Source of the DNA: Gymnodinialimonas sp. 202GB13-11
GTDB taxonomy: Bacteria > Pseudomonadota > Alphaproteobacteria > Rhodobacterales > Rhodobacteraceae
Direction of reading: 5' to 3'
Length of the DNA: 64,000 nt
NCBI RefSeq assembly: GCF_040932485.1
Contig: NZ_JBFRBH010000001.1
Location: 2,232,001-2,296,000, forward strand
Part shown: positions 34,817 to 39,672 of the stretch, one piece after another
How the letters are laid out: every line of letters begins with the position of its first letter
Numbering within the stretch: position 1 is the first letter of the stretch
Translations under genes and position numbers: made by a program
The notes under the pieces: generated by a model
Database searches by the model: none
Seen by the model: only the letters and a program-made list of their open reading frames with translations
Told to the model about the DNA's origin: nothing

Positions 34817-35617
34817 CTAGTCCTCTTCCTCGATCTCCGCTTTGACTTGGCCCCACGCCAGCAGTGCGAACACCAGCGTGCCGCCGACGATGTTGCCTGC
34901 CAGAACGGGAAGGAAGAAACCGAACAGCGCGGGATGGACCGTGAGTTCGCCCTGCAGGATCAACACCCACATCTCGACCGAGCCTGCAATGATGTGCGTG
35001 AAATCGCCCGCTGCGATCAGCCAGGTGAAGATCACGATCAGCACAACCTCACCACCGTTTTGGCTTGGCATCATCCAAACGATCGAGGCGACAAGTATGC
35101 CAGCCGGTATCGCGCGCAAGAAGCCCTCTGAGGGCGCAAAGCCGGTCGCGTGGTGCGACAGCCCGTTGATTGTTCCGAGAAGGTCGGGCGCAATCCCACT
35201 GGTTTGGGTCATGAATGCCGCAGCGACTAGCGCGCCGATAATGTTGGCCGCAAGCACGATACCCCACAGCCGTGCGACGGCTGCCAGGCACGTACCGGAG
35301 CGTTCTGCAACAAGGGGCAGGATCGTTGTGATCGTGTTTTCGGTGAACAGTTGCATCCGGCCAAGGATCACGAGGAGGAACCCAAAGCTATAGCCAAGGT
35401 TTTCAACCAAGAAACGCCATGGTGCGTCTGGCAGGTAGGTTCGAAAAATCGCCTCCCCCAAAACCGAGAATGAGATCAGGATGCCAGCCGCGACCCCGGA
35501 CCAGATCAGTGAGCGAGTGGGCCGCTCCAGCTCTTCCTCGCCGTCACGCCGGATCACCTCATAGATTAGTTTGGAACTGAGGCGCGTCGCCTCGCGAACG
35601 GCCATCTCTTCGCGCAT
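34817..35617 (-). CDS. Formate/nitrite transporter (FNT) family channel, YfdC-like
   Basis: A 266-residue membrane channel subunit with six spans and a soluble N-terminal segment of about 40 residues (EEELERPTRSLIWSGVAAGI marks the first span). The FNT signatures are LVILGRMQLFTENTITTILP and VWMMPSQNGGEVVLIVIFTWLI; the pore Asn region is present. It belongs to the YfdC-like subgroup rather than FocA/NirC, so its substrate is uncertain. Divergent from dps; both have EcfG-type promoters in the 114-bp gap. Confidence 0.9.
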   Translation of the reverse strand: MREEMAVREATRLSSKLIYEVIRRDGEEELERPTRSLIWSGVAAGILISFSVLGEAIFRTYLPDAPWRFLVENLGYSFGFLLVILGRMQLFTENTITTILPLVAERSGTCLAAVARLWGIVLAANIIGALVAAAFMTQTSGIAPDLLGTINGLSHHATGFAPSEGFLRAIPAGILVASIVWMMPSQNGGEVVLIVIFTWLIAAGDFTHIIAGSVEMWVLILQGELTVHPALFGFFLPVLAGNIVGGTLVFALLAWGQVKAEIEEED

Positions 35618-35640: not shown

Positions 35641-35666
35641 AACGCGCGCAAACCGTTGAGAGTTCC
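35641..35666 (-). promoter_or_regulatory. EcfG-type promoter for the FNT channel gene
   Basis: Minus strand GGAAC (35666-35662), 17 bases, CGTT (35644-35641); start codon 23 bases downstream. Confidence 0.65.
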
Positions 35667-35679
35667 ACAAATTTTCTGC

Positions 35680-35704
35680 GGAACTTCGGCGCGCGCCGCG
35701 GGTT
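35680..35704 (+). promoter_or_regulatory. EcfG-type promoter for dps
   Basis: GGAAC (35680-35684), 17 GC-rich bases, GTT (35702-35704), 27 bases before the dps start. It stands back-to-back with the FNT promoter, the two -35 elements being 13 bases apart. Confidence 0.7.
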
Positions 35705-35731: not shown

Positions 35732-36229
35732 ATGTCTGACACATTGAAAGTCATCCCCACTGCCGACGACGTTTCCACGGGCGTCCGCGATAAGGTCGCT
35801 GTTGCCGAAGGTCTCGCCGATATTCTGGCGGACACCTATCGCATGACGTTCAAAACGCATGCCTACCATTGGAACGTGACCGGCCCTGCGTTTTACTCGA
35901 TCCACAAACTGACGGACGAGCATTACGAGAACATGTTCGCGGCCGCCGATGAGCTGGCCGAACGCATCCGCGCGCTTGGTGAATTGGCCCCAATGCGCAT
36001 GAACGACATCATGAAGCGGTCCCGCGTTGAGGATCTGGAAGAGATGCCGTCTGCCCGCGAAATGATGGAAGACTTGGCAAACGACCATCAAAAGTTGGCC
36101 CATCGCCTGCATGCGCTGGTCGAGTTGTCGGGAAATCACAAGGATCCGGTGACGGAAGACCTCGCCACAGAGCGCAGTTCGTTCCACGAGGAAGCCGCCT
36201 GGATGCTGCGCGCCATTGCTGCCGATTGA
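35732..36229 (+). CDS. dps: Dps-family DNA-protection ferritin
   Basis: A 165-residue mini-ferritin that forms dodecamers, oxidises Fe(II) with peroxide and protects DNA. The inter-subunit ferroxidase residues are H46 (AYHWN), H58, D73 and E77, with exactly the spacing of E. coli Dps (12, 15 and 4). AAAGGAGACACTC precedes the start. Promoter of EcfG type upstream and a terminator after the stop show a monocistronic stress-induced gene. Confidence 0.96.
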   Translation: MSDTLKVIPTADDVSTGVRDKVAVAEGLADILADTYRMTFKTHAYHWNVTGPAFYSIHKLTDEHYENMFAAADELAERIRALGELAPMRMNDIMKRSRVEDLEEMPSAREMMEDLANDHQKLAHRLHALVELSGNHKDPVTEDLATERSSFHEEAAWMLRAIAAD

Positions 36230-36302: not shown

Positions 36303-37130
36303 TCAGGCGTCAACGCCCATACGTTCGGTTGTTGCGAAGAACATGGCTTGGCTAACGGCGGCGCGGACCTGATCCTCGGAATAAGGCTTCGTGATCAGAA
36401 ACGCAGGCTCTGGCCTCTCGCCCGTCAAAAGCCGTTCCGGGAAGGCCGTAATGAAAATGACCGGACGATCCCCGAGATCTTCCAGCAGCGCATTCACCGC
36501 GTCGATGCCTGAGGATTTGTCTGCAAGCTGAATGTCCGCAAGGATCAGATCCGGTACCTTTGCCTTACCCTTCGCAATCGCGTCGTCGCGGGTGCGGGCA
36601 ACGTCAGTCACACTGTGGCCCATATCGGTGACGATGGATTTCAAATCCATCGCAATGATCCCCTCGTCCTCGATGATCAAAATGTTACCGGCAACCATGT
36701 CGCCCATCTCGGACATGGCACGCGACACCAGTTCTTCAGCTTCAGACTGTGAGGCATCCATGATCCGCGCGATGGCCTCGAACCCGAAACCCTCAACCGT
36801 GTGCAGCAGCAGCGCCTCGCGCGTGTTCGCGGTTAACTTCGCAAGACGCCATTGCGCACGCACTTCCAGAAGGTCGGTGTTCTCGCCCTCATCCGCACTG
36901 GGTGACCCAGAACTGGACCAGATGCCATGGAAGATGCGGAACAGGCCGATCTTGGTCGTTGGATCATCTGAAACGCTGGACGGGTCGGCAACAATCGCCT
37001 CCAACGTGGCCATTGCGTAGCGGTCGCCTGTGTCCTGCGCGCCTGTCAGCGCACGTGCATACCGGCGCAGGAATGGCAGATCTTCCATCAAATCAGTGCT
37101 CAGATCCCGCGTGTTTTCGGTAGATCCCAT
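36303..37130 (-). CDS. phyR: General stress response regulator PhyR
   Basis: A 275-residue protein with an N-terminal sigma-like domain (about 10-140) and a C-terminal receiver (about 148-268). When phosphorylated, its sigma-like domain captures NepR and frees EcfG. Receiver residues are complete: E154/D155, phosphoacceptor D199 (LILADIQL), T228 in FITAFPE (the FAT GUY-type motif) and K248 (ITKPY). The start at 37130 (MGSTENT) has GAGGAGAAG upstream and is preferred over the frame to 37277, which would cover the promoter. Divergent from nepR; the two share one promoter element. Confidence 0.97.
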   Translation of the reverse strand: MGSTENTRDLSTDLMEDLPFLRRYARALTGAQDTGDRYAMATLEAIVADPSSVSDDPTTKIGLFRIFHGIWSSSGSPSADEGENTDLLEVRAQWRLAKLTANTREALLLHTVEGFGFEAIARIMDASQSEAEELVSRAMSEMGDMVAGNILIIEDEGIIAMDLKSIVTDMGHSVTDVARTRDDAIAKGKAKVPDLILADIQLADKSSGIDAVNALLEDLGDRPVIFITAFPERLLTGERPEPAFLITKPYSEDQVRAAVSQAMFFATTERMGVDA

Positions 37131-37158
37131 GCTAACTTCTCCTCGTGCACATTTTATT

Positions 37159-37187
37159 GGGAACTTTTTCCGCGCTGATTGGTTCCC
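37159..37187. promoter_or_regulatory. Overlapping face-to-face EcfG promoters for phyR and nepR
   Basis: GGGAAC (37159-37164) and GTTCCC (37182-37187) are inverted copies separated by 17 bases. Read rightwards, GGAAC-N17-GTT points at nepR (start 38 bases after the GTT). Read leftwards, the same element gives GGAAC-N17-GTT pointing at phyR (start 32 bases beyond). The -35 box of each promoter contains the -10 box of the other, so two EcfG-polymerases could not sit on it at once. Confidence 0.75.
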
Positions 37188-37221
37188 ACCAAGACGACAA
37201 ATTTTTTGGTACCGGTGAGAC

Positions 37222-37380
37222 ATGGCCTCAGACAGCAAGAAATCCAGGGTGGAGCAGCAGATCGATGAGAACCTCAAACGCGTCTACGACGATGCGATGA
37301 AGGACGAATTGCCCGATCGGTTCCTCGATCTGATTGCCCAACTCAAGGCAAGTGAAGGGGCCGCAAAAGATGGCAAATGA
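37222..37380 (+). CDS. nepR: Anti-sigma factor NepR
   Basis: A 52-residue protein that binds EcfG and is released by phosphorylated PhyR. Two helices characteristic of NepR are seen: QQIDENLKRVYDDAMKDELP and the following DRFLDLIAQLKASEG. The position between phyR and ecfG is diagnostic. Its stop lies inside ecfG (11-base overlap), coupling anti-sigma and sigma synthesis. GGTGAGA precedes the ATG. Confidence 0.95.
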   Translation: MASDSKKSRVEQQIDENLKRVYDDAMKDELPDRFLDLIAQLKASEGAAKDGK

Positions 37381-37918
37381 TCCCCGCGATGAGATTGTTG
37401 AGCATCTCACGTCGCTGCGGGCATTTGCCCGTTCGCTGACGCGCAATCACGCGGCTGCTGACGACCTGGTGCAAGATACCGTCGTCAAAGCATGGTCAAA
37501 TATCGACAAGTTTCAGGCCGGCACGAACATGCGCGCCTGGCTGTTCACGATCCTGCGCAACACGTTCTACTCGTCTCGCCGCAAGGTGAAGCGCGAAGTC
37601 GCAGACGTGGACGGAGCAATGACGGCTCAGCTTTCTGAAAAGCCCGCCCATGACGGTCGGCTTGCCATGAAAGATTTCGCCGTGGCCTTCGCCGAATTGC
37701 CGGATGAACAGCGCGAAGCGTTGCTTTTGGTCGGTGCATCGGGCTTTTCCTACGAGGAGGCCGCCGATATGTGCGACTGTGCCGTCGGCACGATCAAAAG
37801 CCGTGTGAACCGAGCCCGCAAACGTTTGACGGAGCTACTGGAGCTTGATGAAGACGACGCCTTGGAATTGACCGATGCCGCGACCGTTGCTGTCATTTCG
37901 GGACCAGCTGCTGCATGA
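37370..37918 (+). CDS. ecfG: General stress sigma factor EcfG
   Basis: A 182-residue ECF sigma factor of the EcfG group. Region 2 (about 10-75) includes [15 protein letters not shown] and [16 protein letters not shown]; region 4 (about 105-155) includes [21 protein letters not shown] and the recognition helix [15 protein letters not shown]. It recognises GGAAC-N16/17-GTT promoters, several of which lie nearby, including its own. The start at 37370 (MANDPRDE) overlaps nepR. The stop overlaps the kinase start (ATGA). Confidence 0.96.
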
Positions 37919-39672
37919 AGCCACTCGAACGCTTATGGGACAGCGTCACGTCGCTCAAATGGCGGTTGGCGCTGTTTTTGAGCCTTGCCATTCTGCCGCT
38001 GGGCATGATTGCCGTCGTCCAAACGGCAGCCGTTGTACGCGACGCACGAACGCTTGAACAACTTGATATTCTGGCGCGCACGGCGCAGGCGGCCAGCACT
38101 GAGCGGGCACTGTTGCGTCGCGCTCACGGTGCTGCCTCAGCCCTTGGCGCAAGCGCCGTCGAGGCGGCCGATGACCCGCTTCTTTGTGAGCGTATCATGC
38201 AACGGTTCGTGGACCGCGCCGAGGCGTATGCCTTCGCAAGCTTCACGACAGCAGAGGGCCAAACGACGTGTTCTTCGACCGGAGAGCAGATGGACCTTTC
38301 TGACGACCCTGTATGGCAAGAATACATCGAACGCCCAACGCCGAATGTGACCATCGGCCTTGAGACCGAGATGAGCGATCAATCGATGTTGACGGTTGTG
38401 TCTCCGATTTTCGACTCTGAAAGTGGTGAATTTCTAGGGGCAACCTCGGTCGCTCTGCCACACAGCTTAACTGACACGCTGCTGGCTGCGCAGGTGGAAG
38501 AAGTAGATCTCGCCTTGATAAGCGAAGCGGGAGATGTCCTCTCAGCCAGCACCGGGATCACTGACGCAGGCATCTTCGAGGCGCTTAACCTTGAACCCGA
38601 AACCCTGGCGCTTTCGCCGCGCGGCCTGACCTTTAATGTTGTACATCAGGACGGATCGGAGCAATTGGCAGCGCTCGTTCCCTTGATCGAAGACCGGGTC
38701 TACGTTGTGGGCCTTTGGAATGGGTCCATCCAGAATTACGCTGTCCCCATCTTTGGCACTCTCACGCCGCTTTTCCCGGTTTTGATGTGGATCGTGGCAT
38801 TCGGGATCAGCTTTCTGGCGCTGGATCGCTTGGTGCTGCAACACCTGCGCGAAATCCGGCAACGGATGGGGGCATTTTCATTTGACGATCCGGGTTCAGG
38901 GTTTGCGATGCTCGACAACCCGCCTGCCGAATTCAAACAAATCGCGGGAACCTACAACCGGATGATTGACCGGATGTTGGGCGACCGGGCCGACCTTGCC
39001 GAAAGCCTCGAAGAAAAAGAGCTTTTGTTGCGCGAAGTACATCACAGGGTGAAGAACAATCTTCAGCTGATCGGATCCATCCTGAACATGCAAATGCGCA
39101 GTGTGCCCGATGGCGATGCCCGCCGTGTGCTGCGCCGCGTCCAGGACCGCGTCATGAGCCTGTCGACGATCCACAAAGCGCTTTATACGGGCACTACTAT
39201 GGCGCATGTGCGCGGCGACAAGTTGCTGAGTGAGGTTGTTCAGGCCTCATTCCGCGCTGGTATCCCTCAAGGCAAAGGTGTCATCACTTCTCTCGAGCTT
39301 GACAAGGTCGATCTTGATCCCGATCAGGCTGTGCCCTTGGCGTTGTTGGCCAATGAAACCGTAACAAACGCCATCAAATACATAGGCGCACCGGAGACCG
39401 GCACACCGCCGAAAATCTCGGTGCGTTTGACGGCAGATGAGGATCGCAAGATCAATCTGATCGTTGAGAATACGCTCGGCCGCGCGGTGCAAGACGAAGT
39501 CGCCGGTGATGGAACAGGCTTGGGTGGGCGGCTGGTGGAAGCCTTCGTAGCGCAACTCGGCGGCACGTCTGATGTCTCACAGGACGAGGATATTTACCGG
39601 TTCGAAGCAACATTCACCGCATTCGCCGCGCCGCAAGCGGATGATGGCGACGTTTCACCAATGACGCCGTAG
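37915..39672 (+). CDS. Membrane sensor histidine kinase, HisKA_2/HWE type
   Basis: A 585-residue kinase. Transmembrane helices at about 16-40 and 280-303 flank a periplasmic sensor of about 240 residues resembling a dCache/CHASE fold. A HAMP-like linker follows, then the HisKA_2 dimerisation helix with [13 protein letters not shown] (phosphoacceptor H377) and an ATPase domain with [11 protein letters not shown] (N-box) and [14 protein letters not shown] (G-box). Such kinases phosphorylate PhyR. Coupling to ecfG through an ATGA overlap makes it the probable cognate kinase; the periplasmic signal is unknown. Confidence 0.93.

Follow-up and report, generated by a model that had tools for sequence, protein, structure and literature searches.

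The divergent locus of phyR and nepR-ecfG with EcfG-type promoters on both sides is established in Alphaproteobacteria, and both units have been described as EcfG-driven (PMC4814048, PMC8103513). In S. meliloti, the mapped transcription starts of rsiA1 and rsiB1 lie behind RpoE2-dependent promoters (PMC3616915). Co-regulation of the three proteins has been proposed to be advantageous because it keeps them in proportion (PMC4814048). Promoters of the EcfG/RpoE2 type (ECF15) read GGAAC-N16-CGTT (PMC7083833, PMC3892343). Bidirectional promoters that share a -10 element are also established. At these sites, described in E. coli and other prokaryotes, pseudo-symmetric DNA accepts polymerase in two exclusive orientations and yields divergent RNAs, whose starts are commonly 18, 10 or 23 bp apart (Warman et al.; PMC12825309). 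Exclusion between polymerases was reported for the housekeeping bidirectional promoters of E. coli, and the level of polymerase left the forward:reverse ratio unchanged (PMC12825309).

We analyzed a stretch of 64,000 nucleotides from Gymnodinialimonas sp. 202GB13-11 (hereafter the window), which carries a locus with the same genes, layout, and two-sided EcfG-type promoter motifs. The phyR gene (36303–37130, minus strand) encodes a protein of 275 residues with sigma-like and receiver domains (Pfam PhyR_sigma2). On the plus strand, nepR (37222–37380, Pfam PF18557) encodes an anti-sigma factor of 52 residues, and ecfG (37370–37918, Pfam Sigma70_r2 and r4_2) encodes an ECF-type sigma factor of 182 residues; the start of ecfG overlaps the end of nepR (37370 versus 37380). 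A gene for a HisKA_2/HWE sensor kinase identified by Pfam (37915–39672, plus strand) lies nearby, so that the window has the arrangement of a general stress response locus; the presence of such a kinase was examined at the window locus alone. The kinase is a candidate input to PhyR, and its match to the Cache sensor domain dCache_1 scores below the curated cut-off.

The gap between phyR and nepR is 91 bases long and houses an exact inverted repeat. Its arms are TGGGAAC (37158–37164) and GTTCCCA (37182–37188), with 17 bases in between. The initial annotation had described the 6-bp core of this repeat, GGGAAC (37159–37164) and GTTCCC (37182–37187), as inverted copies 17 bases apart, and this holds exactly, with arms that extend even to 7 bp. 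It had also read a full EcfG-type promoter on each strand, and the pattern GGAAC-N17-GTT indeed matches both ways. The predicted nepR-ecfG promoter (37160–37184, plus strand) has its -35 element in the left arm (GGAAC, 37160–37164) and its -10 element in the right arm (GTT, 37182–37184). The predicted phyR promoter (37162–37186, minus strand) has its -35 element in the right arm (GGAAC, 37186–37182 on the opposite strand), and its -10 GTT is the complement of AAC at 37162–37164 in the left arm. The arms exchange functions between the strands because GTTCC, the reverse complement of GGAAC, itself contains GTT. Each -35 element therefore contains the -10 element of the opposite strand, and the boxes overlap reciprocally within a common 27 bp. 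The overlap had been called convergent, but the layout is divergent, since each -10 element lies on the side of its own gene, inside the -35 element of the other promoter. Judged by the usual distance between the -10 element and the start site, transcription of nepR-ecfG would begin at about 37191; the corresponding start of phyR would be at about 37155. A simple scan of the gap region (37060–37300), which weak or unusual promoters could escape, found no housekeeping promoter. The presumed leader of nepR contains the stretch GACGACAAATTTTTTGG at 37193–37209, and a similar stretch (GAC, then A, C or G, then AC and at least four A/T) occurs in 9 of the 12 gaps from the same genus.

The element shares the -35 sequence, the spacer, and the GTT core with the ECF15 type: on both strands of the window, GGAAC is followed by GTT at the 17–18 bases of that type. 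The distance to CGTT in that type is 16–17 bases. However, a similar promoter is superposed on it on the opposite strand, and GGTT (forward) and AGTT (reverse) stand in the window where the published motif has CGTT; the base expected ahead of GTT is C, or else G. The known descriptions of phyR and nepR-ecfG assign one promoter to each unit and, in their accessible text, mention no overlap (PMC4814048, PMC8103513), whereas here both promoters would occupy the same 25–33 bp. We propose that, as in the bidirectional promoters of Warman et al., polymerase would bind in two exclusive orientations and produce divergent RNAs. In contrast to that class, the -10 elements are distinct (37162–37164 and 37182–37184) and not shared, an ECF sigma factor is expected, the -35 and -10 elements swap roles, and the expected starts are about 36 bp apart. 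The element is thus proposed to work like the known bidirectional class while departing from its shared -10 element. In the accessible text of the open-licence literature that was searched, we found no description of superposed phyR and nepR promoters, nor of any ECF promoter in which the -35 and -10 elements swap roles on opposite strands.

The motif itself is not enriched in this genome. The pattern GGAAC-N17-GTT has 53 and 63 matches on the two strands, versus 107 and 107 for the pattern read backwards. GGAAC-N17-GTTCC occurs at three places, versus 12 for the backwards control, and one of the two places other than the phyR-nepR gap sits within an open frame of 294 codons. Within the whole window, seven matches to GGAAC-N17-GTT were found versus 1.6 expected, and two of the seven are the phyR-nepR pair. 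The bare motif is unremarkable genome-wide; it is the location in the 91-base gap, together with the conservation there, that exceeds chance. The search of the genus covered 13 genomes including that of the window, and 12 of them contained a full PhyR (G398, which is 83% complete, gave no full-length PhyR and is absent from the 12 loci). All ten arm bases of GGAAC and GTTCC are invariant in these 12 loci, while the spacer columns hold 0.04–1.59 bits and 3 of 24 flanking columns are also invariant. One species of the genus has an extra base in the spacer, and both promoter motifs are retained, now with N18. The closest named relative among the matches listed is an uncultured Roseicyclus (L170).

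We then compared the regions upstream of phyR at 120 loci of the family, which comprise the 12 of the same genus and 108 others. The latter were taken from the top PhyR matches in a search of 394 genomes rather than sampled at random; a second PhyR copy in G221 was excluded. Matches to nepR and ecfG are both divergent from phyR in 114 of the 120 loci, and three loci with no nepR or ecfG match beside phyR (L068, L069, and L101) are still counted. Exact GGAAC-N15..19-GTT was found in both directions at 102 loci, in the forward direction only at nine, and in the reverse direction only at nine. Although spacers of 15–19 bases were permitted, the matches have 17 or 18 bases, with the exception of one secondary match of 15. 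Overlapping opposed EcfG-type promoter motifs with spacers of 16–18 bases are present at 102 of the 120 loci, whereas in 100 dinucleotide shuffles the count averaged 0.08 and never exceeded 1.

The arms are arranged in two geometries. In the staggered form, found at 98 of the 120 loci, the arm spacing is 21–24 bases, the sequence reads GGAACCAAACGC...GCGTTTGGTTCC, and each -10 element lies two bases within the opposite -35 element. At this fixed two-base offset, C precedes the inner GTT in 73% of the 98 loci on the phyR side and in 52% on the nepR side. The superposed form, which has the 17–18 spacing alone, is limited to 14 loci, namely those of the genus of the window plus L006 and L013. Two of the 98 staggered loci also hold a second pair spaced 17 or 18 bases, and no such exact arm pair was found in 8 of the 120 loci. 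The initial annotation had raised the question whether the inverted repeat with its 17-base gap is conserved across Rhodobacterales. The symmetric element does persist across most of the family, but the 17-base gap is not a family rule. The box-on-box overlap is thus a lineage-specific variant of a broader theme. When the 120 family genomes were searched for a strict staggered pattern, 23 of them had a single match each, whereas the reversed control matched in 1 of 120. All 23 sites adjoin phyR, 18 by the PhyR coordinates and five (L252 and L256–L259) by tblastn placement; the pattern is absent genome-wide from the genome of the window, which has the superposed form. In an EcfG tree of 129 rows, whose deep support is weak and whose bootstrap had not settled, the superposed label needs four changes and its loci lie near the base of the family; a single origin of this form may be compatible with such a tree.

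The length of the gap was estimated at 110 loci that have both the arms and a nepR match, with gene starts extrapolated from tblastn. The estimates range from 81 to 240 bp with a standard deviation of 25.8, while that of the staggered arm spacing is 0.55, and the correlation between the two is -0.07. As the arm spacing does not follow the gap length, the overlap is not mere crowding. An explanation by short gaps was discarded also because 21 of the 110 measured loci have gaps of at least 120 bp and retain the element.

Among 80 loci of named genomes, which are partly the same genomes as the 120 family loci, 57 have the motif in both directions, 14 in the forward direction only, five in the reverse direction only, and four in neither. 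Those with both directions include Pseudooceanicola nanhaiensis, Celeribacter halophilus, Rhodobacter maris, Thioclava pacifica, and Sulfitobacter aestuariivivens. In Paracoccus, all 11 loci of this set (L179, L183, L184, L186, L189, L195, L197–L200, and L202) keep the nepR-side promoter motif and are without a match on the phyR side. Paracoccus is, by this motif content, a natural uncoupled clade, and because the nepR side alone is kept in every one of these loci, the coupling proposed below would be dispensable. Eight of the 11 loci carry an exact GTGCGCACAAG shortly past the forward -10 element, and the other three have a similar stretch.

Outside the family, we inspected 28 loci (L142–L169) from other alphaproteobacterial families, which were the best matches of a class-wide search of 240 genomes. 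The commonest paired form there is a pair of back-to-back -35 elements between phyR and ecfG (GTTCC-N8-GGAAC), present at 7 of the 28 loci (L145, L150, L151, L153, L155, and L156 with N8, and L143 with N6). The gap between these elements is nearly constant, at eight bases, or six in L143. L153 has a superposed pair in addition to the back-to-back pair. In L157, the superposed form precedes an open reading frame that was judged NepR-like by eye, and a tblastn match to nepR is absent. L148, as read by eye, has the staggered form apart from a single mismatch in a -35 element. In L158, GTTCC-N5-GGAAC lies outside the divergent gap and was excluded from the count. The rest of the 28 loci have no close paired motif, a single direction, or a different gene order.

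These features are best explained by a bidirectional EcfG promoter that polymerases occupy in a mutually exclusive manner; such exclusion would fix the ratio of PhyR to NepR-EcfG, and we regard this reading as probable. The promoter activity of both readings is predicted from the motifs. The rightward reading would drive nepR-ecfG and perhaps also the kinase gene, and the leftward reading would drive phyR. One EcfG-polymerase could occupy the element in either orientation but never in both, and steric exclusion of two polymerases on the shared 27 bp can be soundly inferred. Active EcfG would raise PhyR, NepR, and EcfG together, which amounts to positive autoregulation. How initiations are divided between PhyR and NepR-EcfG would depend solely on how strong the two orientations are relative to each other, and this division would stay constant at every sigma level, which we call a ratio lock. 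In a simple binding model with a fourfold difference in affinity, the ratio stayed at 4.0 on a shared element, while it fell from 3.88 to 1.01 with separate promoters. EcfG dependence of both directions, exclusion, and the ratio lock are all inferred here, and exclusion may be relevant at high induction only. Several observations count against this reading: the bare motif is not enriched in the genome, 18 of the 120 family loci have no exact match in one direction and 23 of the 80 named loci have none in one or both, the -10 elements of the window depart from CGTT, the Paracoccus loci are one-sided, and phyR mRNA did not follow ecfG mRNA in R. sphaeroides under membrane stress (PMC5830050).

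The rival that survives best assumes two overlapping promoters without functional coupling, on which firing is too rare for collisions and the symmetry is kept for the sake of each gene separately. It is consistent with findings in E. coli, where the five bidirectional promoters under test fired too rarely at basal level to compete until they were activated (PMC12825309), and with the single-direction loci of Paracoccus. However, the overlap is retained though the estimated gap length varies threefold, and the seven back-to-back loci of other families place the promoters side by side, which indicates that overlap is unnecessary to drive both genes. We therefore consider uncoupled overlap possible but rather unlikely.

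Only one of the two directions might be a working EcfG promoter, with the match in the other incidental. GTT is a short element, single-direction loci occur among both the 120 family loci and the 80 named loci, and in R. sphaeroides under membrane stress ecfG mRNA rose while phyR mRNA did not (PMC5830050). Against these points stand the invariance of both GGAAC and GTTCC in all 12 loci of the genus and the presence of both directions at 102 of the 120 loci, and this explanation is improbable.

The initial annotation had suggested a compact switch, in which exclusion would make the cell choose between the production of PhyR and that of NepR-EcfG. Two polymerases presumably cannot share 27 bp at the same time, as such a switch would need. 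However, the same sigma factor is expected to serve both directions, so that exclusion would split the initiations in a constant ratio and choose no state, and the products would accumulate over many firings. In a toy model with tight NepR binding, basal leak, and random parameters, which is a model and not data, 17 of 3000 sets had three fixed points when the element was shared, versus 58 of 3000 for separate promoters. The model does not favor a bistable switch, and we consider such a switch very unlikely. Even less credible is a dimeric transcription factor site in place of two promoters, as the near-perfect palindromes of 32–33 bp in many genera might suggest: between lineages the arm spacing differs by roughly half a turn of the helix (~5 bp; 17–18 versus 21–24), which would put the half-sites on other helix faces, while the spacing from -35 to -10 stays steady (17 or 18 in both directions at 88 of the 98 staggered loci), and the internal bases agree with the published EcfG -10 element (PMC7083833, PMC3892343).

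A broader and more tentative generalization of the bidirectional EcfG promoter may also be considered. The element may represent a kind of bidirectional promoter not described so far, which could be called a mirror promoter, in which the -35 and -10 elements exchange roles between the strands. It would have been kept across the family in two geometries about 5 bp apart that may interconvert, and it would serve as a ratio lock for the loop of anti-anti-sigma, anti-sigma, and sigma factors. Such a promoter could arise from any GGAAC-N17-GTT if the two positions that follow GTT became CC. L153 and L157 would then be intermediates or independent gains.

Partner-switching loops need the sigma factor, the anti-sigma factor, and its antagonist in proportion. 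If the ratio lock is true, a single promoter that splits initiations would hold this proportion at any induction without an extra regulator. The superposed, staggered, back-to-back, and one-sided (Paracoccus) forms provide a natural series in which the cost of uncoupling could be measured. The underlying sequence rule, a -35 element whose complement contains the -10 element, makes other ECF sigma factors searchable for the same trick.

The window contains another divergent pair of EcfG-type motifs, at 35641–35666 (minus strand) and 35680–35704 (plus strand). The two motifs stand back to back, their -35 elements separated by 13 bp, and they form a non-overlapping contrast to the phyR-nepR pair. 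They precede a formate/nitrite transporter gene (34817–35617, minus strand) and a ferritin-fold Dps-like gene (35732–36229, plus strand). The minus-strand motif has an N18 spacer; as a class, N18 matches show no enrichment within the window (4 versus 1.6, and 11 of 100 shuffles reach 4). The EcfG-type motifs cluster around phyR between 32448 and 41229, seven with N17 and two with N18; at least one of them (35377), inside the transporter gene, is probably no promoter. CsbD-like, Dps-like, and PLD-like genes lie near this cluster, which looks like a local stress-response island.
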